Positions 299 to 28,994 of a stretch of 36,161 bases of DNA are shown piece by piece. The stretch is from an uncultured Lachnospiraceae bacterium (GTDB lineage Bacteria > Bacillota > Clostridia > Lachnospirales > Lachnospiraceae), in contig CAMXBD010000018.1 in assembly GCA_947179245.1 (NCBI GenBank), forward strand, positions 1 to 36,161, written 5' to 3'. Positions within the stretch are counted from its first letter, which is position 1; every line of letters begins with the position of its first letter. Made by a program: the position numbers and the translations under genes. The notes below the pieces were generated by a model, which had not been told where the DNA came from, did not search any database, and worked only from the letters and a program-made list of their open reading frames with translations.

Positions 299-3200
299 GT
301 GCTGTTCTCGGCACAGGAGGATCGTGCAGAAGCTGCTATTGTTGAGGGACTCAAAGCTAGAGAGACACAGATTGACGTTAGCAGTTATGGATTGACAGCA
401 AGTACGTTGAAAGAGGTATATGTTCGGGCATTAAATAATAATCCGAGTCTTTTTTATGTGAAATCGGCGTGGAGTTATTCTCAAACATCAAGTGGACAGA
501 TTGTGTACGTAATGCCAACTTATCTGGCGGAGTATGATGAGTCCTCTTCAGCGAGATATGAGGAGGCTGTACAGAAAGCGCTGGAATCAGTTAATGATGA
601 GATGAACGACAAGGAGAAAGCGCTTGCGTTGCATGATTATCTGGCGATGTGCTGCGCTTATGAAAACGATGGACAAGGTAACTATACGAGCTATAATGCC
701 TATGACGCACTTGTGAACGGAGTAGCTGTTTGTCAAGGGTATACACTGGCATATACGGAACTGTTGCAGAGAGTGGGGATTGGCACTTCTTACGCAACCA
801 GTGATCCGATGAACCATATCTGGAATTTGATCGAGCTGGATAATAGCTGGTATCATGTTGACGTGACTTGGGATGATCCGACGCCGGATTATACAGGAAG
901 AGTATTACATAATAATTTTTTGCGCAGCAATAATGGTATAACAGAGGAAGGACACTATAGCTGGGTAACAGGAATTGATGGTTTGACATGTACGGATGAC
1001 AGTTATGCGTCAGGTCAATTCTGGAATGACCTTTCTACGGCTGTAATCTATGAGGGCGCTGACTGCTATTATATGTCGGGTACAGGAAATATTGTAGAAC
1101 GTTCCGGTGATGGCAGTGAGCAAAATGTGTACGGATTGACGGATAAGACGTGGAATGCTTGGGGCAGCAACGGCTATTGGCCGGGTATTTATACAGGCTT
1201 ATCGCGTGTGGGAAATTATCTGTACTGTAATGATAAGCTTCATGTTTATCGGATATCGCTTTCCAATTTCAGGGCAGAAGAGATATATAGCTATGCCGGC
1301 GGTGATGGCTACATTTACGGAACACGCGTGTGCGACAATATGCTTATGCTGGCAGTGTCACAAAATCCGAATAATATTCCGAGAAGAATGACAGTAGAAT
1401 TGCCGGAGCCGGTTGAAACATTTGACAACTTGGACTTTACATGGATGAGTGCATGGTATGATGATGATTTTCCTAATAATTCATATACAATTAGCAGCGC
1501 TAATACAAACGGTAAATTGAAGTGTATTGTTTTTACTCCGATGACAGAGTCACGGCAGAAAAATCTGAAAGATTTTTATGTTAATTTGTTCCAGACGGGC
1601 AAGTATGTGGAAGTTGTTCTTCTGGATACTAATGGCGTTGAGCGTAAACCATTGTGGGATCTCAAAACGCAGGCTGAAAGTGGATTGGTACCTGTTGGGG
1701 AAAGCAGCGCAGTAAAATACGGCTATGATACGGGCGACAGGGAAGAAGGAACAGATGGAATCAGGGAATCCTATCAGGCGTACTGTGAATCTGTGGAAGC
1801 AGAATACAATCCGGAGAATCCTGCCTGCTTTTTTATCGATGCACAAAATACAATGATTGATTATCACATTCTGAGTGCGGATACAACGATGTCAGAACTT
1901 GCATATGATATTGCAGGGACGGTTACAGAGAAGAGATATATAGAGGCATCGCTAAGTTCACCGGGCAATCTGAAAATCAAATCAAACAAAGAGGGTCGGA
2001 TTGTATTGCAGTGGGACGAGCCTTACGGTGATAGCGCAGATCATTACAATGTCTATCGTGCTGATGCAAGAAATGGTAAATATGTAAAGCTTGACGCAGA
2101 GTGCACCTATTGGTCTGATGCATCCGGAAATAGTCATGTACTGTATACAGATATAGTAGATGCTGTAAATGGGAATAATCCGGTTTATTATTATAAAGTG
2201 GTAGCCGCCGATTGGTTCGGCGCACTTAGTCCGGAGAGTAATATAGCGACGAATGAGGGGATGAAAACAGTAGCGGATCCCTCTTATAAGAAAAAGATTT
2301 ATCTGGTAGATGAGGATGGGAACGAAGTAGATTCCATAACATTGGGCGTGGGAGAGTCTATTCGGTTGTATCCGGAGATGTTATGCAATAATGGAGAAGT
2401 TGTCCGGTTTGATGGTAAAGGATTTCCTTCGGATGATTTGTATACTGATGATATTCCACATTATTCTATTGTTAAAGGAAATGACTTTGATTATGACTGG
2501 GATTCAGAATATGTGTCATATTCGTTTGAAATGTTAGACAGAGGGTACGTTGTGATAACCGGTTTACAGAGTACTGATGGTGCAGACAATCGGTATTTCA
2601 AGTGCTCGATTGAGAACAATCCCTATACGGAAGAAGCACAGGAAATAAAGACTTATGTGCCTGTAACTGTAACCGGAGAAGGAGTATCGGATACGGGCTG
2701 GACACTGCCATTAGACTGTTATACCGACAGACAGGAACTGAATCAGATGCTTCGTGACAAAGTGATAAACCGCGAAACGAAGATGGGCTTTTGCGTGCCT
2801 CAGACTATTTGGGATGAATGGCAGGAAGAAGCAAAATGGTCAGTTGACCGGGATATCATGGATTTTTATAAAGATCGTGAGGGTATGAAGTCTTGGGAGG
2901 GAGACTATCTGTTATATGCTGTGGAACGGCAGAATTCCAAAGAACAGGGCTATGCTATTTATAGATGGGACAGCCAAGAAGAGGATAACTTATATTATAT
3001 TGTTACAATGGATTTCAAGTATTTTGATAATGCAGATCAGGAAGAGAAAGTGAAGGACAAGCTGGATGAACTGATCTGGACGCCGGGAGGAGCACTGTAC
3101 CAGTATCATGATTCTAAATATGATGAATATGAAATTGTTAAGGCGTGCATGGACTGGATTCAGAATAATGTATCTTACATAGGTACGACAACGGCAGTTT

Positions 3201-9200: not shown

Positions 9201-12200
9201 GTACACCGGCAGACTTTAATATTTCTGTCACAGGCAATGCCAAGAGCGGAGCATCCCTGACGTTAGATAACGTGAAGACTGAAGCTGACAAAAAATGGAA
9301 TTGGAGTAATCAGGAGATAGCGGTTGAAGAGACCGGATTTATCAATCAGATTTCAGGTATAAAGAATCTGACTAACGTGACAATCAGAAATTCCAATCTG
9401 CGTTTGAAGACTGGTATAGCCAATGTGAATGAGTTGTCCATGGACGACGTGCGATTGATTACCTGTAAAGCATCTACAGTCAATAACTTATCAATGAATA
9501 GTTCAAGCTGGGATGCGATGGGTGCGACTACGATTACAAACGTGACGAATTTTACAGGAGGCGGAGATAGCTGCTATCTGGCGACGAAACAGGCGGCGAA
9601 GAATTTCCTGCCGCAGCTTACGATTAATGGCAGAATAGAAGACGTTATGACCTGTAAGGTCATTGCGGCATCCACATCGGTGACAGAGATTAAGTATGTG
9701 GATTCTTATAAAGATGTGAAACTGGCTAAACTGCCAAAGGAGGCGGCTGGAAAACTTAATGTTCTCTGGTCGGAGAGTCAGACAGAAACAGAAAGCGGAT
9801 GGATTGTACCTGAGAATAGAATATATTATAAGGACACCGCAAATTATGTTCTTTGCGGCGATACCAGCGAAATGGCAATAAAGCTTACCGGTACAAACGG
9901 CGAGGGCGTGGCATTAGCTGATACTTATGCGAAGTGTTATCAGGATGTAGTTACGATTATCAATAATCTAAACGATCCAAAGGCTTCCTATAGAATTGAG
10001 CTCTTACAGTCCGAGTTTATGACTGGGAAGGACGGCACTTTTGGCGCAATGACTTTCCCGGCGAATAATAAAGCAGAGTCCATAACGCTGGCAGGCGATA
10101 TGCAGAATGTTCCGGTTTTAACTTTCAGTGGAAACATTACCGCATATGGAAATGTAACACTGGAAAATTTAGAGTTGTGTGCAGTAAAGAATATTGTTAG
10201 TTCAGTTCCTGTGGATTTCAATTTATCCATTAATGGAGGAAAAGATGCAGCATCACTGACTCTGACAAATGTTCAGATTAGTGAGAATGGCGGAAAGCTG
10301 AGTAGTGTTAATGGAAATAGTAAGGCTTCCGTAATTTTGAATAGTGAAGGACTGAACCTGTCCGGCAGCATCAATGGAGTAACAACACTCACGGTAAAAG
10401 AAAATGCTGTAGTAAACAATGCTGTCAAGGCGAATACGTTGAGACTTCAGGGTGGCATTGAATTTACGGCAAAGGGAGCGATTACTGTTACTGACATTGA
10501 AAACGTGGGCGGTCAGAATACGCTGGCGTATAGTAGAACGGCGAAGAATGTTACAAACCTGACGGTGAATGGAACGATTAACAATGTTGAAGGAACAGGA
10601 CAGCTTTTGTCACTGAAAATGTTACTTCCGGAAGGGGCAAGTCAGACAGCTTATGAATTGATGAAGGATCCGTTGAAAACGAGCGGTTTCCGGGTTGTAT
10701 TGAATGATCAGAAGAAGCTGGCAGTGCTTCCAAAGGTATCTACCGATGAATTTGAATTCAGCATAGGCAGTGATGGTTCTTCAAGTACGATTGCAGCAGA
10801 TAAACTCGTGAAAGCGAATAAGGGACTATATCTGGCAAATGATGATGTGGCGGCCGATATGGTGACATTGGAGACAATGGATGGAAATTCCGTCCGGTGT
10901 CTGGATCTGAACCAAGCTGTAAGCGAGATTAATACATTGGCAGATGGAACGGCAAGTTATAAGGTGATTTTGAACGGAGATTGTGAAGATGCTAATGTGA
11001 CGGATGCCAATGCCTACAGCGCGTTGACCATGCCCGGTAATGGCAAGGCGGGAAGCGTGACTTTGAAAGGAGAGTTGAATGGAGAAAATACTTCAGTTCT
11101 AACGTTCAGCGGAAACATTACAGCATACGGCAACATAACTATGGAGAACCTGACGTTGAATCCGATGAAGGGTGCTTCCAATAACGCCCCGGCAGATTTC
11201 AACATTACTGTTACGGGCAATGCAAAAACCGGAGCGTCCTTAATCATGAATCATGTACAGACTGCCGCTGATGAACAATGGGATTGGAGTTATCAGGATA
11301 CACCGGTTGAGCAAACAGGATTTATTAACCAGATTTCAGGCACAAAAGGTGTGACTAATGTAACGATTGAAGAATCTAATCTGCGTTTGAAGACCGGACT
11401 GACCAATGTAAATGAGTTATCTTTGAATAGCGCACGTTTGATTACCTGCAAGACCACTGTGATAAATAACTTGTCAATGGATGATTCCGGCTGGGATGCA
11501 TTGGGTGCGACCACGATTACAAACGTGACACATTTTGCGGGAAGCGGGGATAACTGTTATCTGGCAGCAAAACAGGCGGCGAAAACCTTCCAGCCACAGC
11601 TTACCATTAATGGCATGGTAGAGGAGATAGTGACCTGTAAAGTGATAGCGGCATCTACCTCGGTGACAGCGATTGAGTATGTGGCTTCTTACAAAGATGT
11701 GAAACTGGCAAAAATGCCAAAGGAGGCGGCCGGAAAACTTAATGTCCTCTGGACGGAGAGCCAGACGGGAACAGATAGCGAATGGGTTGTACCCGGAAAT
11801 AGAATATACTATAAGGATACTGCAAACTTTGTTCTTTGCGGCGATATCAGCGAAATGGCAGTAAAGCTTACAGGAACAAATAGTGGAGGTATGGCATATA
11901 TTGATACCTATGCGAAGTGTTATCAGGATGCAGTTACGATCATCAATAATACGAATGATCCAAAAGCTCTCTATGAGATTGAGTTTTTGATGGAAGGAGA
12001 AATCCGGACCGGAAAAGATGGAAATGCTTATGGTGCTTTGACATTGCCGACAAAGGCAACAGGAGTTACCATTCGGGGAGTCGTATCGGACACAGATACT
12101 GTTAGTACTTATCTATGCTATACCGGAACGCTGAAACCGAACTGCCCGACGACATTTAAGGATCTTGTTCTGACAGAAGGTGCAGTGAAGAAAAATGTAT

Positions 12201-12835
12201 ATACTCCTACTTATCAGATTACGCCGGTATTAGGGAATGTAAATGTTACATTTGAGAATGTTTCTACTATGCAAAATCCGGCAGCAGGATCAGATGAGGC
12301 GGCAGTAGATATGGTATTTGCATCCGCAAGCGCGGCAAAAGGTATTTTGACGCTCAAAAACGAAAGTGTATACACCAAAGGCAATTTCGTTGTGAAGGAG
12401 TTGTGCGTATCAGGAGAGGCAGCTATTATTGCGGATAAGGCTGTGACGCTTACTAATATTACAGGTGAGGCTGGGGCAGATAGTGCGTCCCTTGTGCTGG
12501 ATACCAAAGTTACTGCAATTACCAAAGCAGGTCAGCAGTCCCTCACTCAGTTAACTTTGAATGGTACGATTAGTGGAGTTGAAGTAGGTGTTGCGCCACG
12601 TATGTATGACCTTTCACAAAAGTCATATCACAGACTGACCTCTTACGAGGCTAGAGCTATGCAGGCAACGGCTGCTAAACCGGATGTCAGTCAGAAGCTG
12701 GCGAATTTATCCAAAACGTTTGCTGATTTTGATTCCTTGATAATACTGTATTCTTCCAAGGGCGACAGCTGGAGTCAGATAGAGCCGAATATGAATTTCT
12801 ATAATTACAGTAACGGACTTTATATGAGACCTTAA
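299..12835 (+). CDS. Giant modular surface-type protein: two transglutaminase-like domains, FN3-like domain, ~9 repeated putative beta-helix/adhesin modules; 5' end unresolved
   Basis: Single 4178-codon ORF. TG domain 1 has AVCQGY / NHIWN / VDVTWDDP; TG domain 2 has ATCEGYS / AHTYNIV / YYFTDPSAN (Cys-His-Asp order). Repeated 'F.eAV..IN.L.d....Y.i.LL....ALTMP....' modules follow. The same frame is open upstream to ~47 (acidic tract) without ATG/GTG/TTG; the GTG at 299 is the first possible start. Confidence 0.9.
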   Translation: MLFSAQEDRAEAAIVEGLKARETQIDVSSYGLTASTLKEVYVRALNNNPSLFYVKSAWSYSQTSSGQIVYVMPTYLAEYDESSSARYEEAVQKALESVNDEMNDKEKALALHDYLAMCCAYENDGQGNYTSYNAYDALVNGVAVCQGYTLAYTELLQRVGIGTSYATSDPMNHIWNLIELDNSWYHVDVTWDDPTPDYTGRVLHNNFLRSNNGITEEGHYSWVTGIDGLTCTDDSYASGQFWNDLSTAVIYEGADCYYMSGTGNIVERSGDGSEQNVYGLTDKTWNAWGSNGYWPGIYTGLSRVGNYLYCNDKLHVYRISLSNFRAEEIYSYAGGDGYIYGTRVCDNMLMLAVSQNPNNIPRRMTVELPEPVETFDNLDFTWMSAWYDDDFPNNSYTISSANTNGKLKCIVFTPMTESRQKNLKDFYVNLFQTGKYVEVVLLDTNGVERKPLWDLKTQAESGLVPVGESSAVKYGYDTGDREEGTDGIRESYQAYCESVEAEYNPENPACFFIDAQNTMIDYHILSADTTMSELAYDIAGTVTEKRYIEASLSSPGNLKIKSNKEGRIVLQWDEPYGDSADHYNVYRADARNGKYVKLDAECTYWSDASGNSHVLYTDIVDAVNGNNPVYYYKVVAADWFGALSPESNIATNEGMKTVADPSYKKKIYLVDEDGNEVDSITLGVGESIRLYPEMLCNNGEVVRFDGKGFPSDDLYTDDIPHYSIVKGNDFDYDWDSEYVSYSFEMLDRGYVVITGLQSTDGADNRYFKCSIENNPYTEEAQEIKTYVPVTVTGEGVSDTGWTLPLDCYTDRQELNQMLRDKVINRETKMGFCVPQTIWDEWQEEAKWSVDRDIMDFYKDREGMKSWEGDYLLYAVERQNSKEQGYAIYRWDSQEEDNLYYIVTMDFKYFDNADQEEKVKDKLDELIWTPGGALYQYHDSKYDEYEIVKACMDWIQNNVSYIGTTTAVYHSAYSALYNKKATCEGYSLLLYRMLREFGISNRILMGTDANAHTYNIVEINGVYYFTDPSANILLKGSKNFSHAPWQSHFRDPEFKANITDRISETDYVYLPRNIELYQLATNDGQEVETYIDRYKTFEEAREVMEEDGNYLIRLMGNTSLVTGDELDLPTNIGCELDLKGYTLGVPKSAVICADIYGGDNGKGVIKVDKNQSLTLNTSGSEIQVRNLTISFDAASQSSELKLGSSSLDKPLTLTQVNVTGTPALVVGSNIVMDSASSFAVGALKVEDTSRNTVLDGKLTAKTLGAGALSLTVRDLTVSGETVVDGGFELNVKGNVSFGKVTVQNSSTADPFLINLLKIVDGQDSEISTGAVKFTGALVKDSSASYAVELQRMKAVQGSEDVMESDPFMPEDIIATITAKESVVPTGYFCIPKDTYGRDLCLVREGNALKVQGAILEVSLQGKTGTQKYVSLDEAILRMASDFGNEKGDYTFTFLSDTSLTKNITLPAMVQTLELKTSEKQDNQHLFAVLDLKGYTLSTVAAVKMYEGLQIISSGKRGKLTLTGTAADGQDFYVETLTGDVKWINAIGEELVNASDSRTMLDGVDLSASKGVIVLQTEGSVVLNANISARELRVESGNWILGGVTMSSGYNVANGAEVAQSALTLTNSMADISGNSIIDNAVTLTNTKLAVKQGGELSAGTIQVKTLYKQESAANGYTIENAGHFQAGTLQMSVGTFYNSGTAQMDAISNIKAFVNARSAVLVSGTFNQISSGSSRLEADSVLAVKEKAVLYNIELCGAYFYQLEGCNTAFEGKVTLADEVSDEGIGLRYGVITESTFENLLRDGNENVSVQELAPQTMLFTTKISKFPSTYVRALQPDADSAYTMVYQIGQNIRVGKEWIVIWAKRLDGEEQHLKSFVRWTDAVAYLSDLSNPSLTYIVDILDDVDIEQALTMPAKSAGLIIRGTNMPGEEAGSVRTNVLTYTGDLNLTTNVEFSNIELRAKKNNVDYQSVVTLKGKSLTFSNGASGTFAAINGNATAALVINDSRVEVRGALTVGELRSAEGGELIGLATIKRDKNGNITAVTPQITITGQTAIDMPITVGLQEKVTVNKVVSYEMINFAGASGEQIRTAGIQLIKAVYAQPEDYKVSEENGIQNGTLTKKNGYLLWFDGSEYSVILRYGSGANQTEIPCATFADAVAEINSLKTKQPYTLLVQEKAEEISGNAPAALAMPNKNYISGLRIEAVSTDTVKLYYLGNLTLTTDTVLKDVEFCQMVKVGKEYVPADVSKEDYPAPVTLSTGGFGLTIEGKVRFNTPLHLNGANAGTFTIAKDASLATETNGITADLDNTSVSVIVGSVQKFKTFDIAEGQSVQICQFGTKSAKGVTYTAATLNVTGMTVGGNLTVDNGNATIRDLIMTGGTLQVTGEKAGKAVLTNVTMEGNKSEIFADRDFTISGTLTNLGTNAELYTRQKPEAKGITQMPYLNITGKVVTEPGRQITIGVRPNDCTIDEMAELHDAPQASAQLLTAKSAGVECFAADPDNVNNAGAYGPGNENGYMLVKTGNNIYAYDSDHVVVALCKGTVSNCSLENAEIINYYPGWQEAVAALNALNQKTETYTLLLLKDIGTQDASLSLSMPSKAEKVYVTSVDVADGNSKSIFYRNALNLGTNMEFANVELAPVTAKGLGASLGFTVNNFALTLRDIQVSEAESGMSLKDITGKGKGSVTLMSEGLTFSGGISGVQVLMVQKDAIVTGAVKADTLMLQDNVEFTANGAITVTNIENGNGQNTLAYGRTAKDLSNLTINGTITNSNRENPLQLKMIIPEGKDWNEYALHLAEIKAGGYKVTLSDTNKLAVMPKVSTADFNFCFKSMEHGDLVENIVKANKGLYLMADDNEADYSVGLKSSAKDGMNLCMDLTQAMNEINTLADGTADYTLYLWGYFDDTNITDNNPYGALTMPGNGKAKSVTLTGSDEEGVSYNTVVTFTGNINAYGNLTMKDLCLEPVKSISNGTPADFNISVTGNAKSGASLTLDNVKTEADKKWNWSNQEIAVEETGFINQISGIKNLTNVTIRNSNLRLKTGIANVNELSMDDVRLITCKASTVNNLSMNSSSWDAMGATTITNVTNFTGGGDSCYLATKQAAKNFLPQLTINGRIEDVMTCKVIAASTSVTEIKYVDSYKDVKLAKLPKEAAGKLNVLWSESQTETESGWIVPENRIYYKDTANYVLCGDTSEMAIKLTGTNGEGVALADTYAKCYQDVVTIINNLNDPKASYRIELLQSEFMTGKDGTFGAMTFPANNKAESITLAGDMQNVPVLTFSGNITAYGNVTLENLELCAVKNIVSSVPVDFNLSINGGKDAASLTLTNVQISENGGKLSSVNGNSKASVILNSEGLNLSGSINGVTTLTVKENAVVNNAVKANTLRLQGGIEFTAKGAITVTDIENVGGQNTLAYSRTAKNVTNLTVNGTINNVEGTGQLLSLKMLLPEGASQTAYELMKDPLKTSGFRVVLNDQKKLAVLPKVSTDEFEFSIGSDGSSSTIAADKLVKANKGLYLANDDVAADMVTLETMDGNSVRCLDLNQAVSEINTLADGTASYKVILNGDCEDANVTDANAYSALTMPGNGKAGSVTLKGELNGENTSVLTFSGNITAYGNITMENLTLNPMKGASNNAPADFNITVTGNAKTGASLIMNHVQTAADEQWDWSYQDTPVEQTGFINQISGTKGVTNVTIEESNLRLKTGLTNVNELSLNSARLITCKTTVINNLSMDDSGWDALGATTITNVTHFAGSGDNCYLAAKQAAKTFQPQLTINGMVEEIVTCKVIAASTSVTAIEYVASYKDVKLAKMPKEAAGKLNVLWTESQTGTDSEWVVPGNRIYYKDTANFVLCGDISEMAVKLTGTNSGGMAYIDTYAKCYQDAVTIINNTNDPKALYEIEFLMEGEIRTGKDGNAYGALTLPTKATGVTIRGVVSDTDTVSTYLCYTGTLKPNCPTTFKDLVLTEGAVKKNVYTPTYQITPVLGNVNVTFENVSTMQNPAAGSDEAAVDMVFASASAAKGILTLKNESVYTKGNFVVKELCVSGEAAIIADKAVTLTNITGEAGADSASLVLDTKVTAITKAGQQSLTQLTLNGTISGVEVGVAPRMYDLSQKSYHRLTSYEARAMQATAAKPDVSQKLANLSKTFADFDSLIILYSSKGDSWSQIEPNMNFYNYSNGLYMRP
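610..935 (+). other. Transglutaminase-like domain 1 (within giant ORF)
   Basis: EKALALHDYLAMCCAYEN...YDALVNGVAVCQGYTLAYTELLQRVGI...NHIWNLIELDNSWYHVDVTWDDP. Confidence 0.85.
1950..2255 (+). other. Fibronectin type III-like domain (within giant ORF)
   Basis: SSPGNLKIKSNKEGRIVLQWDEPYGDSADHYNVYRADARNGKYVKL...YYYKVVAADWFGALSPESNIA is a typical FN3 pattern. Confidence 0.65.
3115..3405 (+). other. Transglutaminase-like domain 2 (within giant ORF)
   Basis: YEIVKACMDWIQNNVSY...YSALYNKKATCEGYSLLLYRMLREFGI...DANAHTYNIVEINGVYYFTDPSAN. Confidence 0.8.
8200..11960 (+). repeat. Internal tandem duplication, ~1.98-1.99 kb period (two copies of a two-module superunit)
   Basis: NTLADGTADYTLYL (aat at 8942) vs NTLADGTASYKVIL (aat at 10931), offset 1989; IENGNGQNTLAYGRTAK (8531) vs IENVGGQNTLAYSRTAK (10517), offset 1986; CYLATKQAAK (9572) vs CYLAAKQAAK (11555), offset 1983. 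Confidence 0.85.
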
Positions 12836-12946: not shown

Positions 12947-13021
12947 GTTGTTGAAAATACGGTGAATTCCATGGAAAGGTTTGGTATACTATACTCATCA
13001 AATAAAAAGGCAGGTTTTTAT

Positions 13022-13531
13022 ATGGACATAAATTTGCAGATTACTGATATGGCGGGTGCAAGCCCCGAACATTCTCTGGTGATTGTCAATTTTGTTTCGG
13101 CAATCAGGAAACAGTTAAGGAATAGTACATGCTATGTGTACTCCGATAATGTGCAGTATAGATTTAAAACTGATGATGGAGAAGGCAAAATAGTCATTCC
13201 AGATGCCTCCATTAATTGCCGTACAAAATCAAGGCGTGGCAATACGTTTCTTGACACACCCAGATTTGTATTAGAAGTGTTGGCTCCAACCACAGAGCAA
13301 TATGACCGTTCTGAGAAAATGGAAATATACAGACAGCAGGAAATTGAAGAATATTGGATTGTAGATTGGAGAAAGAAAGAGGTTGAAATATACGAGTTAG
13401 ATTATGAAAATGACATTCCAAAATATTTTTTGTGGAATAAAATTACGGAAAACAATAAGAGTGAATTAAAAATTATCCATTTTCCGGGTATAAATATTAC
13501 TTTTGATGAATTGTTTGATGAAATTGAATAA
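13022..13531 (+). CDS. Uma2 family endonuclease (DUF820, PD-(D/E)XK)
   Basis: YRFKTDDGEGKIVIPDASINC...DTPRFVLEVLAPTTEQYDRSEKMEIYRQQEIEEYWIVDWRKKEVEIY is characteristic of Uma2. The track ORF starts at 12962; internal ATG 13022 (MDINLQ) looks like the true start. Confidence 0.85.
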   Translation: MDINLQITDMAGASPEHSLVIVNFVSAIRKQLRNSTCYVYSDNVQYRFKTDDGEGKIVIPDASINCRTKSRRGNTFLDTPRFVLEVLAPTTEQYDRSEKMEIYRQQEIEEYWIVDWRKKEVEIYELDYENDIPKYFLWNKITENNKSELKIIHFPGINITFDELFDEIE

Positions 13532-18625: not shown

Positions 18626-19909
18626 ATGAATCAATATCATGTTAAAAAGCTGGATCATATAAAAGAAATCAAAGTTCAGGTGCCGGGCTCCAAAAGCATC
18701 ACCAACAGGGCATTACTGCTCGCGGCATTATCGTCGCGCCGGTGCAGACTGCACGGTGTCTTATTCAGCGACGATTCCAGAGCTTTTCTGGACAGCCTGA
18801 CAAAGCTGGGGTTTGAAGTGGAAGCAGACGAAGAGACAAAGGATGTGGTGATTCAGGGGTTAGGTGGCAGGATTCCTAATAACCGTGCCTCCATCAACGT
18901 GAGAAGTGCAGGAACGGCAGCGAGATTTTTGACAGTCATGCTGGCGCTGGCAGGGGGAGAATATGAACTTCAGGCGTCGCCGCAGATGTGCAGACGCCCC
19001 ATGAAGCAGCTTTTGGATATCCTGAAAGAAGCAGGTGTGGAGTTTGTTTTTCAGGGAGAAGAAGACCATTTTCCTTTTGTGATGAAGTCGCAGTCTGTGT
19101 CCATGAAAGAGGTGCAGATCGATACCGGAATCAGCAGTCAGTTTGCAAGTGCTCTTCTCATGTCGGGCGCGCTTCTTAAGGAGGGGCTGACAGTGCTTCT
19201 TTCCGGCGACAGGGCGGAAGGTTCTTATATTAAGATGACCCTTGCCATGATGGAACAGTTCGGTATTAAGCCACACAAAGTAGAGGACGGATACCGGATT
19301 CCGAATACCAATGCTTTCGGACTTGAGGAATATCAGGTGGAGCCGGACGTGTCAGGCGCATGTTATTTCTATGCAATGGCGCCCTTATTACAGACAGATG
19401 TCACGGTAAAAAATGTTCATATGGATTCTTTGCAGGGAGACATAATGTTTCTAAATATTCTGAAGGATATGGGCTGTACCGTAACCGATGAGTCAGATGG
19501 AGTTAAAATAGCAGGCAGCAGTCTTGCAGAGTATCCGGGCATGGATATTTCCATGAAAGACTTTTCGGATCAGACCATGACGATGGCAGCGGTCGCACCT
19601 TTCGCCAAAGGTCCTACACTGATCCGCAATATTGGGCACATACGTTATCAGGAGACCGACAGGATTCATGCCATTTTGACAGAGCTTACCCGCATGGGAA
19701 TCAAATGCGAAGAAGTTCTGGAACATGACGGAATCAGAATCATGCCCGGAGCGATAAAGGAGTGTGCTGTTGAGACTTATGAAGATCACCGCATGGCGAT
19801 GGCTTTTACGTTGAGTGGTCTGAAAACGGGTAAGATTACAATTATGAATCCGGAGTGCTGCCGTAAGACGTTTGAGAATTATTTTGAATTGATTGAAGAG
19901 TTGTACTAA
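18626..19909 (+). CDS. aroA: 3-phosphoshikimate 1-carboxyvinyltransferase (EPSP synthase)
   Basis: VQVPGSKSITNRALLLAAL, NVRSAGTAARFLTVMLAL, RRPMKQLLDIL, DFSDQTMTMAAVAPFA, IRYQETDRI, ETYEDHRMAMAF. Confidence 0.95.
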   Translation: MNQYHVKKLDHIKEIKVQVPGSKSITNRALLLAALSSRRCRLHGVLFSDDSRAFLDSLTKLGFEVEADEETKDVVIQGLGGRIPNNRASINVRSAGTAARFLTVMLALAGGEYELQASPQMCRRPMKQLLDILKEAGVEFVFQGEEDHFPFVMKSQSVSMKEVQIDTGISSQFASALLMSGALLKEGLTVLLSGDRAEGSYIKMTLAMMEQFGIKPHKVEDGYRIPNTNAFGLEEYQVEPDVSGACYFYAMAPLLQTDVTVKNVHMDSLQGDIMFLNILKDMGCTVTDESDGVKIAGSSLAEYPGMDISMKDFSDQTMTMAAVAPFAKGPTLIRNIGHIRYQETDRIHAILTELTRMGIKCEEVLEHDGIRIMPGAIKECAVETYEDHRMAMAFTLSGLKTGKITIMNPECCRKTFENYFELIEELY

Positions 19910-19921
19910 GCGGCATATTTT

Positions 19922-20380
19922 GTGAGGATGCGGGAAGATATGGTTGTAAATGTACTTGTAAAAAGTGTCTCGAAAGACAGAAATAAAATCACTCCGGTTC
20001 CTTATGATATTCCAGCAGATATCAGTACTGCTGGTGATTTGCTCAATGAGATGGTCAAAGTCTGTCTGGAGCAGTATCGGAAGAGAGTGCAGAGCAAAGG
20101 CGGAAATGATTTATTGAAGCAGGTGGAGACGTTAGAGGAACGTGCCATGTCAGGAAAAGTAGTCTATGGAGTATACTCTGGCAGGAAACCGCCGGATGAG
20201 GTAGAAGCAGTGGAAAATGCGAAAGATGCATTTGAGGACGGAGTGACAGCAATATTCGTTGATGGAAAAAGGATAGAGAATCTGACAGATCAGGTGATGC
20301 TTAGGGAGGGCAGTGAGGTGATGTTTGTCAAGCTTACTGCCCTTTCGGGTTCCTGCCTGCTGTTAGACTGGATGTCGTAA
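19922..20380 (+). CDS. Small hypothetical protein with probable beta-grasp (MoaD/ThiS or YukD-like) fold
   Basis: N-terminal strand-turn-strand (VVNVLVKSVSKDRNKITPVPYDIP) and helix; C-terminal AIFVDGKRIENLTDQVMLREGSEVMFVKLTALSG resembles MoaD/ThiS 'vNg..v....L.dGDeV.f.p...GG'. Start could be ATG 19928 or 19940. Confidence 0.55.
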   Translation: MRMREDMVVNVLVKSVSKDRNKITPVPYDIPADISTAGDLLNEMVKVCLEQYRKRVQSKGGNDLLKQVETLEERAMSGKVVYGVYSGRKPPDEVEAVENAKDAFEDGVTAIFVDGKRIENLTDQVMLREGSEVMFVKLTALSGSCLLLDWMS

Positions 20381-20382
20381 GT

Positions 20383-23300
20383 ATGGAGGCGCAAATGATA
20401 TACGATCATGAATCCCGTCAAAAGTTGATAGATACATATGAGAAACAGTGGAATCAGAGGCTTACAGACCAGCCGCAGGATGTGCTTGATATGGTAAAAA
20501 ATATCGAGCTGTCAAGGGGATATCTGAGTGTGGGAATGAAAGTGCCGCAGGATGTCTACCGCATTTTAGGACAAAAAGATATGACTCCATCCAGAATGAT
20601 GAAGGAGTACTATGGGGAACTGGTCAGACTGTATGTGCCGGAGGAAAAACGGGAGCAGTATTTTAGTTTGATTGATAAATTAAATCAGTTTCCGGCGTAC
20701 GGTACAGGGAGCAGAGGCGATAGCTATGTGCCTTTTGCAAATGAAATATTTGAGATGCTGTTTGATTATAAAGTATTGGGATTCTATGGCGGGAATCTGT
20801 CGGATTATCTGAAAAAAGACTTGCCGGATGAGCTTTTGGATATCAGCGTACATACGAATCTTTACGGCATGAGACACATGGATAATCTGGTTGCCGCCGC
20901 GCTCGATGAGGGTGACGAGGCAGTGATTCGCATTGCGCATGATACGTTGTGCGGTGGTGAATCTGCGATAGAGCTTGAAAGCAGGTTTTTATCCGGAATT
21001 ATGAAAAGCTCAGATCGGGCGCTTTATGAACAGGCTGGCAGATTACTGTTGGCGGCGGGCATACAGGACGGGCTCAGGCAGATGGTGTGTCAGGCGGCGA
21101 CTGCCGGAACTGCGGAGGCATTTGTCGGCGTATTTGATTATATCTGTGAGAATAAATTATTCCGATTCAGCGGTGTGCGGATGGCGCTGATGCAGTGGTT
21201 CAATGTATGGGACAGCAAAGGATTGGAGCTGCTGATGGGGAAATATTTATCCTCAATCAAAGAAGCTTTGCATAACCGGAATAAGGCGGTAGAGCTTTGC
21301 GGATCGTCGGATCAGATTTTAATCTATATTGGTCTGTGGGCGATCAGCGTATACAATAGTGACAATGTAATCGGAATCCTGCATGGTTTTCAAAGAGAAG
21401 GCACGAAGCCGCAGTTGCTGGCGATGGCATATTTTAATCAGAAAATGTGGTCTGATAAAGCGTGCCGTCAGGTAGCACAGCGGGTACTGCATGATACGCG
21501 TAATGAACAGGATATGGAGCTTGTGGCTGCTTATTGGGATGCATACTGCATTGATTTAGACAGGTATCTCAGAAAAGCCGGTATCAGGAAATGGGACGGC
21601 GCCGCAGGTTATGTCAAAGTGCCGCTTGGTGATTATTTCGAGGATGAAAACGAGGCGGGATGCCGGGTTAAATTTCTTAGAAATATATTGGATAATCTTC
21701 AAGGCGGGGATGTGCGGTTCGCTCCCTGCATTTTCCCATGGCATAGTGCCAAGATTACCGTATCGCAGGTGATGAAACAGCTCTGTGTGCACGCACATAT
21801 ACTTGGGGATGAGGAACTGACGGATTATGTGCTGGATCATATTAAGGATATAAAGAAAGAATCAAATACAGGAAGCAGGGCAGATTATGTGGAACTGCTT
21901 CTGCATGATGTGTCAGAAAACAGGCATATAGATAAACTGGTCAGCCTGATTGCGGATAAGGAGAGTGACACGCAGGAGACGGCGGCAAGGTTGTTGGAGA
22001 ATGTTACTCTTGAGGAGTCCCATTATGAAATGCTGGAAAGCTTTTTGAGGCTGAAAAATGGAGGAATCAGAAGAAATGCAATCAAGCTGTTAAGTATGCA
22101 GAGTAAGGAACGGATACCTCTTTGTGTGGAACGGCTCTTACAATCCGGCGATGAGAGAATGCAGGAAGGTGCGCGGAGTCTGATGCTGGAAGTTACACAG
22201 GAGGAATCTGCATGTGAGGAGCAGGAGGGATATGGTCTGTATAAAACGGATGTTCATATCACATTCCCACAGCGCAAAGCGGATAGGCAGGCGGTTATTT
22301 CCTATTTTGATATAGAGCGGGAAGTGATAGACGGTATCCTCTCTAAACTCGCGGAGCTGATCGAAGAATATACTGATAAACTGTATATTGCTAAGAATGG
22401 GGAAGAGATACGGTTTGATTATTATTTATCCGGTGGCCACAGATGGATATATGATGGTGAGGTTCCCTTTCAGGAGGTATGGACTGGTTTTTATGAAAAA
22501 GAAATCAAGGATGTCAGGACTTTGACACTTCTTGACCTGTGTTTGTGTGACCGTGGAATAATTATGATCGAGCAGGAAAGGTATGAGCAGTGGAATCACA
22601 CGCTGTACGGAGATGCTATAGCAGATTACGTTTTGCCGGAAACTATACGGGCGATGGGGACAGCGCTAGGCCGTATAGTTGATATTTTGACAGATATTTA
22701 CGGACAAGGTGATCTGGGTCAGATTGGTATGGAAGTGCTGCAGTGGGTCATGGAAGATATGTTGCCCGAAGAGATGTGGTATCAGAGAAAACAGAAATAT
22801 AACGGGATTCCTACTTCTCATAAGACCGCATATATAAACTCCGCTAAGATGCGGAAAATCCGGCGGGCAGTAGACGGATGCACAGGGACAGAGAACTTTG
22901 TAAACCGTTTCTTTTTGTATGCATTGTTAGACGATAAATTTTGTTTTCAGGAAAGCAGGGGAAAGCGGTATGACCGTTATGGCGGAAATGATGATTTATT
23001 AGATGTATTGGATTATGTCAAGGCGTGTTCCTTGGGGATTATAGAGGAAGATATCGTCTATAAGAACATCTTTGAGAAGTGGGGACTGCACTATACTTTT
23101 GATGCATTAGGGATGTTTGAAGGTATGAAAGACCGCTGGCGGTGGGAAGACCGGGTGCAGAAACTGAAAGGTGCCACCAAAGAGGAAGAAGAACAGTTCA
23201 TGGAAACAGGACACCGTATTTATACCCGGCTGACAGAGCGGATACTGGAAGCAGAGTTGAAGCGGGGAGATATGCCTACGGATTTTTCAGACAGTATCGG

Positions 23301-25275
23301 CAGCATTGAGCTGATTTACGGTATGAAGTATTTTGTAAGAATCTTAATGGCGCTGGGTGATGAGAAACTGGCAAGACATGGACAGACAAACGCCGGGAAG
23401 AAGGAATGCCTCAGTCATCTTCTCTATGTCTGTATGCCACAGGAGGGTGATAGTGCAGAGCTACTGAGAGAATTACTGCATAAGGAAGGAAACGGCAAGG
23501 CGGCGGTCAGCGACAGAAGACTCATTGAAGCAGGTATGTATGCACCGCAATGGTTAGACATTCTGGAGAAATATTTTGGAATCTGCGGATTGAAGAGTGG
23601 CGGATACTATTTCATTGCGCATATGGATGAATGGTTTGATGAAAGGCGCAGGGCGGTGATCGCCCGCTATACGCCTTTGACCACGGAAGAACTTAGAATG
23701 GGTGCCTTTGATTCCGGGTGGTTTAGGCAGGTTTATGCAATGCTGGGGGAGAAGTACTTCGGCTGGCTTTATGATGCCGCAAAATATATTTCTGGTGGGG
23801 CAAAACATGTCCGGGCAAGAAAATACGCGGATGCGGCATTGGGAAAAGTGTCTGTGGAGCGGCTGGAAACAGAGATTGTTTCTAAGCGGAATAAGGACTC
23901 ACTGATGAGTTACGGACTGATTCCTTTTCATGATAAGAAAGATATGCTGCACAGATATGATTTTATACAGCAGTTTCTAAAGGAGAGCCGGAACTTCGGC
24001 AGCATGCGCAGAACAAGTGAGGCGCTGGCTGTGAAGATGGCACTCCGTAATATGGCTTCTGCGGCGGGATATTCAGACACTATGCGCCTGTCCCTTGCCA
24101 TGGAAAGCGAGATGACAAAAGAGTATGAAAAATATAGTAATTCGCATGAGGTAAAGGATAAGAAGTTAAAGGAGCAGAGCAGAAGATGCATCTCTATGTT
24201 CGAGCAGGCAATGACAGAGGGAGAAATTTTTCGTTATGAAGAACTTGCCGCGCTGTGTGAGAATCCGTCGGCTGGACCTGTGATTCGTGCACTTGTTTTT
24301 ATCGAGCAGGAAGCTTTTGCCGTGCAGGCAGACAAAGAGCAGGATAACGCTAAAAATGCCGGTAGGACAAACACTGAAAAGAAAGAACGGCGAAACGGTT
24401 ATATTACAGAAAATGGACTGATGGATGCGGCAGGCAATATGATTCCGGTTAAGCCGGATACTGTCCTTCGGGCAGCACATCCTGTAGAATTGTATCAGGA
24501 GGGCGTACTGGAGGCATACCAGAGAGGGTGTTATGATAAGATATCTTCGGGTGTGGTAAGAAAGCAGCCTTTTAAACAAATCTTCAGAGAGTTTTATGTG
24601 AAGCTAAAAGAAGAACTGGAACAAAAAAGCAGTCATATGTTTGAGGGGTATCAGGTAGATGCACGCAAGGCGCTGGCGTGCTTAAAGAGCCGGGGATGGA
24701 TCGCAGACGCAGAAGAGGGAATCCAAAAAGTCTGTTATGGAACGGATATCGTAGCAAGAATCATTGTGTTGTCAGACTGGATCACGGTGGAGGATCTGAT
24801 GACACCGTCCATAGACTGGATTGATTTCTATGACCGGATGAATCATGAGCCCGTGTATGTGAAGGATGTACCCGATATTGTCTACTCGGAGATCATGCGT
24901 GATGTGGATCTGGCGGTGAGCGTCGCCTATGTGGGAGGCGTGGATCCTGAGACCTGCCGCTCTGGAATTGAGATGAGAAAGGTGATCGCAGAGTACAATA
25001 TGTCATTGTTTGGTCTGCAGAATGTAGAGTTTGTCAAAAATCATGCTGTGATCAAAGGAAAACATGGTACATATACAGTCCATATGGGAAGCGGCGTTGT
25101 GCATCATAGAGGCGGTCCGCAGATATATATAAAGGCGGTTCCGGCACAGAGACGCGGGAGAATTTTTCTGCCCTTTGTGGATGATGACCCGAAGACGGCA
25201 GAAATCCTGTCGAAGATCATTTTGTTTGCACAGGATGATAAGATAAAAGATCCGGAGATTCTGGGTCAGATATAA
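20383..25275 (+). CDS. DUF4132/DUF5724 (YehI/MolR-like) giant protein with HEAT-like helical body
   Basis: 1630 aa; helical repeat region; C-terminus EFVKNHAVIKGKHGTYTVHMGSGVVHHRGGPQIYIKAVPAQRRGRIFLPFVDDDPKTAEILSKIILFAQDDKIKDPEIL resembles the C-terminus of DUF4132-type proteins. The ATG at 20395 has the better SD (ggagg). Confidence 0.75.
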   Translation: MEAQMIYDHESRQKLIDTYEKQWNQRLTDQPQDVLDMVKNIELSRGYLSVGMKVPQDVYRILGQKDMTPSRMMKEYYGELVRLYVPEEKREQYFSLIDKLNQFPAYGTGSRGDSYVPFANEIFEMLFDYKVLGFYGGNLSDYLKKDLPDELLDISVHTNLYGMRHMDNLVAAALDEGDEAVIRIAHDTLCGGESAIELESRFLSGIMKSSDRALYEQAGRLLLAAGIQDGLRQMVCQAATAGTAEAFVGVFDYICENKLFRFSGVRMALMQWFNVWDSKGLELLMGKYLSSIKEALHNRNKAVELCGSSDQILIYIGLWAISVYNSDNVIGILHGFQREGTKPQLLAMAYFNQKMWSDKACRQVAQRVLHDTRNEQDMELVAAYWDAYCIDLDRYLRKAGIRKWDGAAGYVKVPLGDYFEDENEAGCRVKFLRNILDNLQGGDVRFAPCIFPWHSAKITVSQVMKQLCVHAHILGDEELTDYVLDHIKDIKKESNTGSRADYVELLLHDVSENRHIDKLVSLIADKESDTQETAARLLENVTLEESHYEMLESFLRLKNGGIRRNAIKLLSMQSKERIPLCVERLLQSGDERMQEGARSLMLEVTQEESACEEQEGYGLYKTDVHITFPQRKADRQAVISYFDIEREVIDGILSKLAELIEEYTDKLYIAKNGEEIRFDYYLSGGHRWIYDGEVPFQEVWTGFYEKEIKDVRTLTLLDLCLCDRGIIMIEQERYEQWNHTLYGDAIADYVLPETIRAMGTALGRIVDILTDIYGQGDLGQIGMEVLQWVMEDMLPEEMWYQRKQKYNGIPTSHKTAYINSAKMRKIRRAVDGCTGTENFVNRFFLYALLDDKFCFQESRGKRYDRYGGNDDLLDVLDYVKACSLGIIEEDIVYKNIFEKWGLHYTFDALGMFEGMKDRWRWEDRVQKLKGATKEEEEQFMETGHRIYTRLTERILEAELKRGDMPTDFSDSIGSIELIYGMKYFVRILMALGDEKLARHGQTNAGKKECLSHLLYVCMPQEGDSAELLRELLHKEGNGKAAVSDRRLIEAGMYAPQWLDILEKYFGICGLKSGGYYFIAHMDEWFDERRRAVIARYTPLTTEELRMGAFDSGWFRQVYAMLGEKYFGWLYDAAKYISGGAKHVRARKYADAALGKVSVERLETEIVSKRNKDSLMSYGLIPFHDKKDMLHRYDFIQQFLKESRNFGSMRRTSEALAVKMALRNMASAAGYSDTMRLSLAMESEMTKEYEKYSNSHEVKDKKLKEQSRRCISMFEQAMTEGEIFRYEELAALCENPSAGPVIRALVFIEQEAFAVQADKEQDNAKNAGRTNTEKKERRNGYITENGLMDAAGNMIPVKPDTVLRAAHPVELYQEGVLEAYQRGCYDKISSGVVRKQPFKQIFREFYVKLKEELEQKSSHMFEGYQVDARKALACLKSRGWIADAEEGIQKVCYGTDIVARIIVLSDWITVEDLMTPSIDWIDFYDRMNHEPVYVKDVPDIVYSEIMRDVDLAVSVAYVGGVDPETCRSGIEMRKVIAEYNMSLFGLQNVEFVKNHAVIKGKHGTYTVHMGSGVVHHRGGPQIYIKAVPAQRRGRIFLPFVDDDPKTAEILSKIILFAQDDKIKDPEILGQI

Positions 25276-25328
25276 ATCTGCAAATTATTTCTTTACAAGG
25301 GTATATTGTATTTTATACTGGCAGTGAT

Positions 25329-26351
25329 ATGATGGAAGATAACAGGAGTGAGGACGTTATGACACATAAAACAGAAATGGAATTGTGGGATGTTTATACA
25401 AAAGACCGAGAAAAGACAGGCAGACTACATAGCAGGGGAGAGAAGATGAAGGACGGGGAATATCATATGGTAGTCCATGTCTGCATTTTTAACAGCAAAA
25501 ATCAACTGTTGATTCAGAGAAGACAGCCTTTCAAAAAGGGCTGGTCGAATATGTGGGATATCACCGTAGGCGGATCAGCTTTGCAGGGGGAGAGCAGTTG
25601 TCAGGCGGCAGAGAGAGAAGTGTTTGAGGAAATCGGTTTAAAAATAGATTTATCAGACGCCAGACCGGATTTTACGATCAATTTTGAGGATGGCTTTGAT
25701 GATTACTATTTATTGGAGCGGGAAGTGGACTTAGATAAACTGCATTTACAAGAGGAAGAGGTTCAGGATGTCCGATGGGCGGACAAAGAAGAAGTGCTCC
25801 AGATGCAGGAACAGGGCATCATGATTCCGTATTGGTTTTTAGACCGGTTATTTGAAGTGCGCGGTTATGATGCGCACGGCAATCAAAAGCGTGACATACG
25901 GATTGAATTTGCCACGATGCACAATCTTGCTTCGTGGATGAGTCTGGTAGAGATTGTGAGAGCGAACTTTCCCGGATTGGAAACACAAGAACTGATTGAA
26001 GGATATCGGGATACAGTTATAAAAAATATAGAGCGGCGTAGTGCCATATGTGCACTGCATGGTAATATTGTCGTAGGAATCCTGCTTTTTTCCGAAAAAC
26101 ATAATATGCTTTCATGCATGGCGGTTCATCCTGAATACCGCAGGAACGGGATTGCAGGAAGTATGATTGGATTGATGCTGACGAAGCTGGATCAGACGAA
26201 AGATATTACCGTTACAACATTTCGCGAGGATGATCCTAAAGGAACTGCACCGCGGGCGTTGTATAAGTCTTTAGGATTTGTCCCGTCAGAACTTTGTATT
26301 GAGCAGGGATATCCCTCGCAGGTGTTTGTGCTGAAAGGAAAAATGCATTAA
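25329..26351 (+). CDS. NUDIX hydrolase - GNAT acetyltransferase fusion
   Basis: Nudix box GGSALQGESSCQAAEREVFEEIG; C-terminal GNAT motif LSCMAVHPEYRRNGIAGSMIGLML...ALYKSLGFV. Confidence 0.9.
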   Translation: MMEDNRSEDVMTHKTEMELWDVYTKDREKTGRLHSRGEKMKDGEYHMVVHVCIFNSKNQLLIQRRQPFKKGWSNMWDITVGGSALQGESSCQAAEREVFEEIGLKIDLSDARPDFTINFEDGFDDYYLLEREVDLDKLHLQEEEVQDVRWADKEEVLQMQEQGIMIPYWFLDRLFEVRGYDAHGNQKRDIRIEFATMHNLASWMSLVEIVRANFPGLETQELIEGYRDTVIKNIERRSAICALHGNIVVGILLFSEKHNMLSCMAVHPEYRRNGIAGSMIGLMLTKLDQTKDITVTTFREDDPKGTAPRALYKSLGFVPSELCIEQGYPSQVFVLKGKMH

Positions 26352-26393
26352 GGTAGAAGATACTGAAACAGTGAAAGGAATCAATGAGTAGTT

Positions 26394-27371
26394 GTGACAA
26401 GGCGGGAAGCATATAGTATTCTTGGAATTTCACCGGAAACGTCGAGGGATGAAATCAAAAAAAGATACCGGAAATTAATGCTCCAAGTGCATCCGGACAG
26501 TGGTGCATCATCAGATGAAAGCTATAGATACAGTGCGCAGGAAATTAATATTGCCTATGAACTTCTAAATGCGGAAGGCACTGCAGATGATCTTTCCTGT
26601 CAAGCGGCAGGTTCCCGCAGTAGAAAAGGCAATGCCGCACGGGAGAAGAAAAAGGATGTATGGAATGCACCGCTTAACACGAATGCTTATCGGCAACGGG
26701 AGATTTTATGCTATGCAGAAGATAATGACGGTACTGTGTTAGGGAATTTTTGTGTTGCAAAGGGAAAATATCTGTGGACAACGGAAGAAGATTTCCCATT
26801 GTTTCTGCTAAGCGTTTACCAGTGTGGCAAACAGATTCTGGATGAGTGCGATGAACATTATCACAGAGGAGATGTACCTGTGATACGGCAGCGTATTCAG
26901 GCTGAACTCACTTATCTGCTTGCACAACAGTTTATAGACGGAACTGCGCTGTTACAGGAACTTGCGAAAGAAGATGTGCCGGACGAAGACGGAAACAGGA
27001 TTTTCTATATTCCATCTATGCTGGAACTGACAGCTGGCAGGGTGAATTTGAAAGCAGGGGATATTCTTTTGCCATCTGAACTCAGGCGGCATAAATTATA
27101 TTTGAAAAATCAGGCAGGACGCGAGATAGGTTATCTTTCTTTTCAGGATGACCGGTTATACTATATTATAGTGCCTCTTTTTGAGCAAAAAAGGGTGCAG
27201 ATCAAGGTACAGGCAGCAGAAAAGCAGGAAAACAGAAGGCGGAATAAATCCGGAGGATACCATAACCTTCATTTATGGATCAGACTGCTTGATGCTGACA
27301 GGAATTGTATGCCGGAGAACCTGAATTTACAGATTGATGAGTTATTGGAGATGTATCAAAAGGCAGATTAG
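26394..27371 (+). CDS. J-domain (DnaJ-like) protein with uncharacterised C-terminal region
   Basis: REAYSILGISPETSRDEIKKRYRKLMLQVHPDSG...INIAYELLNAEG (HPD motif present); no G/F or zinc-finger regions. Confidence 0.85.
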   Translation: MTRREAYSILGISPETSRDEIKKRYRKLMLQVHPDSGASSDESYRYSAQEINIAYELLNAEGTADDLSCQAAGSRSRKGNAAREKKKDVWNAPLNTNAYRQREILCYAEDNDGTVLGNFCVAKGKYLWTTEEDFPLFLLSVYQCGKQILDECDEHYHRGDVPVIRQRIQAELTYLLAQQFIDGTALLQELAKEDVPDEDGNRIFYIPSMLELTAGRVNLKAGDILLPSELRRHKLYLKNQAGREIGYLSFQDDRLYYIIVPLFEQKRVQIKVQAAEKQENRRRNKSGGYHNLHLWIRLLDADRNCMPENLNLQIDELLEMYQKAD

Positions 27372-27406: not shown

Positions 27407-28465
27407 ATGAAAATTGCAGTATTTTTTCCGGGAATAGGCTATCATTGTGACAAACCGCTGTTATATTACAGCGGAAAAATTGCAGAGCAGTATCATTTTG
27501 AGACATATAGAATAACCTATACTGGTTTAAGCAGATCAGTAGATGAGGCGTTTGAGCAGGCAGTTGCTCAGACTGAGGATGCGTTGGCGCAAATTAATTG
27601 GAGCCAATATGAGGAAATACTTTTTGTGTCAAAAAGTATTGGCACAATCGCAGCGTCCGTTTATGCTAAGAAGCATGGGATTAATTGCAGAAATATTTAT
27701 TATACGCCGTTGGAAAAAACTTTTGCCTATAGTCCGCAGTCCGGAATCGTCTTCCATGGCACTAATGATTCATGGGTGGAAACGGCAATCATTACCGCTA
27801 AATGTCGGGAGTACGCTCTGCCGCTGCATATTATAGAGGGCGTCAATCATTCACTTGAGACCAAAGATGATACGATGAGAAATCTCAGTATATTAATGCG
27901 GGTGATGGAATTGACGAAGAGTTATATTGCGGATGGGATTCAGTACAGGCAGTTAGGTGAAGGGGATTTATGCCGTGAACTTTTCAGTGGATTTATCCGG
28001 CATCAGAATGTTACGAAGTGCCGGAGAAAAGAAAATGGAAGCTGGGTTATAAAAGATGATCCCTTTATTGACGATTGGAGCGAAAATGACTATAAGTTTC
28101 TGGTCAGCTGTTTGACTAATACAGTCAATGCAGGTGGTTTTGTCTATGCCGCCTTTTGTGATGGTGTTTTAAAAGGATTTGTCTCTGTGGAATCAGCTAT
28201 GTTCGGAGGTATAAATAAATATCTTGATCTGTCAAGTATTCATGTGTCCGAGGATATGCGCGGAAGAGGGATTGGAAAGATGCTTTTCTTGGCGGCAGCA
28301 GAGTGGGCAAAGCAGAAGGGAGCGGGTAAGTTGTACATCTCAGCTCATTCGGCAGTGGAGACGCAGGCGTTTTACCGTACCATGGGGTGCGTGGAAGCAC
28401 AGGAGTACAATAAGGAGCATGTGGAAAGAGAGCCTTATGACTGTCAGCTGGAATATGTATTATAA
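27407..28465 (+). CDS. Alpha/beta-hydrolase-like domain fused to GNAT acetyltransferase
   Basis: N-term KIAVFFPGIGYHCDKPLLYYSGK...EEILFVSKSIGTIAASVYA...GIVFHGTNDSWV...IIEGVNHSLE; C-term LSSIHVSEDMRGRGIGKMLFLAAAEWAK...AFYRTMGC. Confidence 0.8.
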   Translation: MKIAVFFPGIGYHCDKPLLYYSGKIAEQYHFETYRITYTGLSRSVDEAFEQAVAQTEDALAQINWSQYEEILFVSKSIGTIAASVYAKKHGINCRNIYYTPLEKTFAYSPQSGIVFHGTNDSWVETAIITAKCREYALPLHIIEGVNHSLETKDDTMRNLSILMRVMELTKSYIADGIQYRQLGEGDLCRELFSGFIRHQNVTKCRRKENGSWVIKDDPFIDDWSENDYKFLVSCLTNTVNAGGFVYAAFCDGVLKGFVSVESAMFGGINKYLDLSSIHVSEDMRGRGIGKMLFLAAAEWAKQKGAGKLYISAHSAVETQAFYRTMGCVEAQEYNKEHVEREPYDCQLEYVL

Positions 28466-28480
28466 GAAAAATATTTTCAG

Positions 28481-28534
28481 AACCGGATGCCATATATTTT
28501 TTGTAAAGTATATTGCATCCGGTTTCCTTTTTTG
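28481..28534 (+). terminator. Rho-independent terminator ending the aroA-to-GNAT gene run
   Basis: aaccggatgc ... gcatccggtt perfect 10-bp stem, then tccttttttg. Confidence 0.8.
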
Positions 28535-28945: not shown

Positions 28946-28994
28946 TTGACAAAATCGAACATTTGTTTTAATCTGGTAAAAGAACAGATGTTCT
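28946..28994 (+). promoter_or_regulatory. SOS-regulated recA promoter with two LexA/DinR-type boxes
   Basis: TTGACA 28946-28951, 17-nt spacer, TAATCT 28969-28974; CGAACATTTGTTTT (28956-28969) in the spacer; AGAACAGATGTTCT (28981-28994). Both fit GAAC-N4-GTT[C/T]. Confidence 0.8.

Follow-up and report, generated by a model that had tools for sequence, protein, structure and literature searches.

The locus and its genes

The stretch of DNA analysed here (the window) comprises 36,161 nucleotides from an uncultured Lachnospiraceae bacterium (contig CAMXBD010000018.1, positions 1 to 36,161) and carries two adjoining plus-strand genes, one encoding a small protein with a predicted ubiquitin-like (beta-grasp) fold (19922..20380) and the other a giant protein of 1630 residues (20383..25275), which recur together as a conserved unit. 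The two lie within a run of six codirectional genes, all on the plus strand, consisting of aroA (18626-19909; listed as an open reading frame (ORF) and assigned by Pfam to 5-enolpyruvylshikimate-3-phosphate synthase), the small gene, the giant gene, a NUDIX-GNAT gene (25329-26351; both parts recognised by Pfam), a J-domain gene (26394-27371; Pfam DnaJ) and a hydrolase-GNAT gene (27407-28465; from the ORF list, GNAT by Pfam). The successive gaps of 12, 2, 53, 42 and 35 bp were confirmed as initially annotated, as was the terminator that follows the run, with a stem AACCGGATGC...GCATCCGGTT and a subsequent T-run at about 28479-28530. The conserved unit is nevertheless two genes and not six.

The start sites of both proteins probably lie somewhat downstream of those listed. 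The first start listed for the small protein is a GTG at 19922, giving 152 residues, while position 1 of the family hidden Markov model (HMM) falls on the ATG at 19940; because the homologues align from this ATG, it is the more likely true start, and the protein would have 146 residues. The giant probably starts at the ATG at 20395 (1626 residues), 5 nt past a Shine-Dalgarno-like GGAGG (20385..20389, plus strand) assigned from the sequence and the alignment of giant N-termini, and the junction between the two genes would therefore measure 14 bp instead of 2. Positions 25292-25319, which separate the giant from the NUDIX-GNAT gene, resemble a promoter no better than chance would allow.

Pairing of the small gene with the giant

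Among 61 related genomes, this one included, a small homologue was found in seven, always just 5' of a giant of 1,630-1,733 residues and with differing flanks. A scan of GTDB genomes with the giant alignment returned 391 relatives, from which 80 loci were kept; the small gene lies directly 5' of the giant in 76 of them, mostly with a spacing below 150 bp, and the other four loci are truncated at contig ends. In a set of 299 genomes from the phylum, a model of the small protein and the model of the DUF7737 domain carried by the giant pick out the identical seven genomes (Fisher p 2.5e-14), in all of which the two genes adjoin, the giant being broken in one (L119). Two incomplete giants have no small gene, one being a remnant (L029) and the other broken and at a contig end (L030). 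The distance matrix of the small protein correlates with that of the giant (r 0.82-0.89), which is consistent with joint inheritance but is no proof of contact, since shared ancestry yields the same signal. The gene preceding the pair is codirectional and within 80 bp at 21 of 74 loci and the gene following it at 14 of 71, so that the pair usually stands alone. The pairing is thus obligate for the long, DUF5724-bearing form of the giant, co-inherited, and without a further recurrent partner. The initial annotation had proposed the small protein as a dedicated partner of the giant, and the near-perfect co-occurrence, the directly upstream position and the spread over at least three phyla bear this out; the survey of related genomes, in which the pair recurs beyond this species, leaves the proposal standing for the pair.

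Two loci (L119 and L028) have a giant gene with internal breaks next to an intact small gene, for which either decay or assembly error is possible. A further locus (L096:255-10749), cut by the contig at its upstream end, holds two tandem giant genes with a single small gene between them.

The pair is present in at least three phyla, Bacteroidota among them, since four Deinococcus species, Bacteroides finegoldii and Chondrinema litorale have large replicons on which a small homologue (HMM E 1e-26 to 1e-50) lies directly 5' of a window-like DUF4132 giant, and all three giants scanned from these replicons have DUF5724, DUF4132 and DUF7737 by Pfam. In B. finegoldii (L126:5278-7032), a rhomboid-protease gene ends about 8 bp ahead of the small gene. 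Two short forms of the giant, DUF4132-DUF7737 proteins in which DUF5724 is not detected, likewise have a small homologue directly 5' of them, in Chondrinema (L132, HMM E 5e-15) and in Novosphingobium (L141, HMM E 3e-10 to 1.5e-7). Because these short forms share the C-terminal DUF4132-DUF7737 module with the long giants, their position suggests, without proving it, that the small protein recognises this module. A requirement of every DUF4132-DUF7737 protein for a small partner was considered and dropped, strict pairing holding only for the long form.

Domain architecture and predicted folds

The giant exceeds the curated Pfam cut-offs of 25, 27 and 27 bits for all three of its families, namely DUF5724 (20548..24102, plus strand; E 7.8e-228, 760 bits), DUF4132 (24157..24699, plus strand; E 2.4e-29, 103 bits) and DUF7737 (24967..25272, plus strand; E 2.1e-30, 105.2 bits). 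The DUF5724 region is predicted to be mostly alpha-helical and HEAT-like, and DUF7737 occupies the C-terminus, in the part of the giant that is conserved best (residues 1451-1630, with a mean pairwise identity of 0.70). Modelling of the C-terminal 1200 residues with AlphaFold2 gave an alpha-solenoid ending in alpha/beta domains, with a mean predicted local distance difference test (pLDDT) score of 85.5 and a predicted template modelling (pTM) score of 0.79, and the fold matches are the solenoids of condensin, karyopherin and CAND1, with low template modelling (TM) scores. Together with weak Pfam HEAT matches, this supports the HEAT-like character originally ascribed to the giant. Its description as "YehI-like" applies to the shared DUF4132 domain and does not extend further, as YehI of Escherichia coli has no DUF5724 or DUF7737 match.

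The small protein belongs to no Pfam family (best E 0.024, under the cut-off), NCBIfam family or PADLOC family, and no significant PDB sequence homologue was found for it or for the giant. An AlphaFold2 model built from 81 sequences (pLDDT 78, pTM 0.70) has the strand/helix order E-E-H-H-H-E-E-E, with pLDDT >90 in the first helix as well as the later helix and strands and low values in a helical insert and the tail. The top Foldseek matches in the PDB are phosphoinositide 3-kinase (PI3K) Ras-binding domains, which have a ubiquitin-like fold (E about 0.01, TM 0.39); a search of viral folds returned nothing below E 0.04, with a putative ubiquitin among the matches. In a separate published prediction, the structures found to match the Deinococcus radiodurans homologue DR_A0165 were those of MOCS2, SAMP1 and further members of the MoaD family (PMC9650054). 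A beta-grasp fold, as the initial annotation had assigned from the sequence, is therefore likely but not proven, the order of elements and the Ras-binding matches speaking for it and the lack of any match below E 0.001 leaving it probable only. The last strand and tail (20321..20380, plus strand) are well conserved across the family, the extreme C-terminus being divergent; the protein in the window ends in ...MFVKLTALSGSCLLLDWMS, the family form being TFVRLTMLAGRMW and the Deinococcus form LLRLTALAGG.

The Deinococcus operon and its control by DNA damage

In D. radiodurans, drA0165-drA0166 is the same small/giant pair (small-protein HMM E 2.5e-32, a three-domain giant and a 2-bp gap). This pair was reported as a DNA-damage operon controlled by DdrO/IrrE, with drA0165 listed as a DdrO target carrying a radiation/desiccation response motif (RDRM) at -83, and mitomycin C raises the DRA0166 protein in the wild type and not in an irrE mutant (PMC8533742). 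Another study, in which DR_A0165 is named SEP068184, states that the gene has no RDRM and is conserved in Deinococcus only (PMC9650054). The former account is favoured here, because all four Deinococcus species have, 72-92 bp upstream of the pair, the palindrome TTATGCTATTTACATAA or one closely similar to it and because homologues occur well outside the genus. The palindrome differs from the published RDRM consensus by one or two mismatches, and none of the Deinococcus loci of 14-16 kb has a second match as good; judged by sequence, the Deinococcus pairs thus carry the operator that marks the DdrO (RDR) regulon.

According to PMC9650054, deletion of DR_A0165 raises antioxidant activity in D. 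radiodurans, and the protein binds Trx1. It has to be noted that among annotated loci a thioredoxin gene lies immediately 5' of the small gene only in D. radiodurans, so the Trx1 link may be local. For the Clostridia, stress regulation through LexA, CIRCE, CtsR, PerR or Rex was considered and rejected for want of clear enrichment; PerR-like sites, for instance, occur upstream of 15.8% of the pairs compared with 8.3% in shuffled upstream sequence.

A predicted adaptor-scaffold complex

The reading that we prefer, and consider reasonably probable, is that the pair encodes an obligate two-subunit complex of a ubiquitin-fold adaptor and a HEAT-like scaffold acting in a stress response, in which binding between the two is predicted. 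In this model, the small protein would be translated immediately ahead of its partner of about 1,650 residues, a long HEAT-like alpha-solenoid with a conserved alpha/beta DUF4132-DUF7737 module at its end, and would bind it non-covalently, serving it alone as an adaptor or assembly subunit. For contact, the small protein would use its conserved last strand and its tail, and the docking site on the giant would probably be the C-terminal module or its vicinity; the complex would serve as a protein-binding scaffold during the stress response, which in Deinococcus would be switched on by DNA damage via DdrO/IrrE. The physical binding, its site, the scaffold role and the same role outside Deinococcus are what we infer; because the pairing is conserved and the Deinococcus copies have a DNA-damage switch, the pair has the appearance of an undescribed two-part stress machine.

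Several observations weigh against this model. Compared globally, the fold of the giant matches generic solenoids, with TM scores of about 0.1-0.18, and the fold match of the small protein is modest, with no PDB match below E 0.001 by Foldseek. A comparison with MoaD/ThiS profiles gave at best P 0.009, against a single MoaD sequence, shuffled controls giving no score. Three of the five short-form loci (Chondrinema L142, Acetobacter L143 and Nonomuraea L140) have no detectable small partner nearby. Of the 157 proteins pulled down with DR_A0165, Trx1 is named and DRA0166 is not in the passages of PMC9650054 consulted. Finally, the sequences upstream of the Clostridia pairs show no clear enrichment of LexA, CIRCE, CtsR, PerR or Rex sites, and for that reason a stress role outside Deinococcus would be an extrapolation.

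A more far-reaching version, which we regard as doubtful, would make the pair a new class of ubiquitin-fold machinery spread over several phyla, in which the HEAT-DUF4132-DUF7737 giant is the sole enzyme or receptor, without E1 or E2, and which has been recruited to the DNA-damage response in Deinococcus.

Alternative explanations

In the main rival explanation, the small protein acts as a genuine ubiquitin-like modifier or as a sulfur carrier. An E1-like enzyme would activate its C-terminal glycine, and the giant or its clients would then either become linked to it or make use of it. It would be favoured by the -GG ends found in the four Deinococcus species (LTALAGG), the Chondrinema short form (LTPLVGG) and Novosphingobium (LTPLKGG), by the likeness of DR_A0165 to MoaD-family proteins and SAMP1 in the published prediction already mentioned, and by a ThiF-superfamily hit in every one of 15 carriers tested (one under the cut-off), the genome studied here having a single such gene, on another contig. 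However, a GG ending occurs in none of the 84 small proteins from Firmicutes, most of which end in LTMLAGRMW or SGW, and is confined to Deinococcus and the two short-form loci. The C-terminal di-glycine of MoaD/ThiS carriers is absent from the window protein, which ends in LSGSCLLLDWMS, its nearest relative having LSASC. No E1, E2 or JAB gene recurs beside the pair at giant loci, and no cysteine is strictly conserved among the giants aligned, which argues against a thioester ligase role. MoaE, the partner of MoaD, is absent from 11 of the 15 carriers, this genome included (with 87.6% completeness limiting any such absence claim for a single genome), and a MoaD function for the small protein was rejected on this account. 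Conjugation by the small protein, the sense in which it had been called a possible modifier, is accordingly not upheld, and we consider a modifier or carrier role unlikely.

A conflict module of the anti-phage or toxin-antitoxin type, moving patchily from genome to genome, also appears an improbable identity for the pair. Its distribution is indeed patchy, the small gene being found in seven of 37 same-genus genomes (this one included), its flanks vary among loci, it occurs on large plasmids, and the giant has one weak local match in PADLOC-DB 2.0.0 (WGR_XIII, E 5e-5), confined to the HEAT region. This database yields no full-length defence-model match for the giant, however, and none at all for the small protein. 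Neither 50,697 phage records nor the viral contigs of IMG/VR contain the pair, which was found on only six of 72,556 plasmids, none of them typed mobilizable, and the Deinococcus copies are governed by a DNA-damage regulator. The 136 immediate neighbours of the pair are ordinary metabolic and transport genes with one isolated retron reverse transcriptase, and a defence-island context was discarded.

The initial annotation had further suggested that the small protein, the giant and the J-domain protein form a single system recruiting an Hsp70, for which the tight codirectional packing in this one genome and the presence of DnaK and DnaJ among the DR_A0165 co-precipitants (a large and unspecific list; PMC9650054) could be cited. 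Orthologues of the J-domain protein are found in four genus genomes (G002, G005, G034 and G026; 53-72% identity) and a weaker one in G022 (30%), none of which carries the pair, and the six same-genus carriers of the pair all lack a full-length orthologue. In G022 (L168), the J-domain relative has a 68%-identical hydrolase-GNAT gene close by, with the pair absent. At 96 giant loci, no window gene other than the pair has a recurrent homologue, J-domain protein included, and clustering of all neighbours at giant loci gave no third partner, only generic ABC ATPases recurring. The J-domain, NUDIX-GNAT, hydrolase-GNAT and aroA genes were therefore rejected as system members and are local bystanders; the Hsp70 part of the proposal falls with them, as does the wider gene run as a system, and the three-protein arrangement is very unlikely.

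A role of the pair in molybdenum metabolism, after the MolR/"molybdate" annotation of DUF4132, is likewise highly improbable, for while the literature ties DUF4132 and WGR proteins to MolR/molybdopterin (PMC8533742) and modA lies a few genes from the pair in D. radiodurans, most carriers lack MoaE, as given above, and moeA/moeB are unresponsive in DdrO-depletion data.

Relation to known systems

The D. radiodurans operon is the same two-gene unit as that of the window, differing in its -GG tail as compared with -SGSCLLLDWMS. E. coli yehI shares only DUF4132 with the window giant and has no small homologue within the 30 kb around it; as had been noted initially, it lies beside yehL (MoxR) and yehP (vWA), to which yehQ (SWIM) can be added, and neither a MoxR ATPase nor a vWA gene is found next to the DUF4132 gene of the window. 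MoaD, ThiS, SAMP and Urm1 resemble the small protein in the predicted beta-grasp order and, in some lineages, in the -GG end, but the small protein is longer, has a helical insert and no clear sequence match to them, mostly lacks GG and has no dedicated E1 or MoaE. YukD and TmoB, likened here by description, are small beta-grasp subunits devoted to one larger assembly, as is proposed for the pair, and YukD is reported not to be conjugated (PMC1779556, PMC1949818); their partners differ, and no ESX or mono-oxygenase genes are among the recurrent neighbours of the pair.

Parts of the unit were thus known before, and the conserved pair appears not to have been described in the papers found. DUF5724 and DUF7737 go unmentioned in the searchable papers, a scope that leaves out preprints and most subscription papers, and the passages checked of two beta-grasp surveys (PMC1779556, PMC1949818) describe no such small/giant pair. 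The unit joins three orphan Pfam families (DUF5724, DUF4132 and DUF7737) and an unannotated small-protein family in at least three phyla, and DR_A0165, a stress protein called genus-specific, is in fact widespread. As DRA0166 has already been tagged, and DR_A0165 tagged and deleted, in D. radiodurans, the function of DUF4132/DUF7737 is directly testable there. The small protein would be one more candidate for a ubiquitin-fold protein that, in bacteria, serves a single partner and does so without enzymes of conjugation.

Other features of the window

In the NUDIX-GNAT gene (25329-26351, plus strand), a NUDIX part is fused to a GNAT part, and PADLOC PDC-S07 matches the former with E 1.2e-9. Further upstream, an unusually long plus-strand ORF of 4,178 residues (299-12835) matches the transglutaminase core (PF01841, E 1.2e-19) and, at E 0.001, nothing else in Pfam; a gene for a putative endonuclease of the Uma2 family (PF05685) lies at 12962-13531 on the plus strand. 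Just 5' of recA (29016), the window has at 28957-28993 an exact GAACAGATGTTC, its only exact LexA-box-like core, together with a one-mismatch GAACATTTGTTT.

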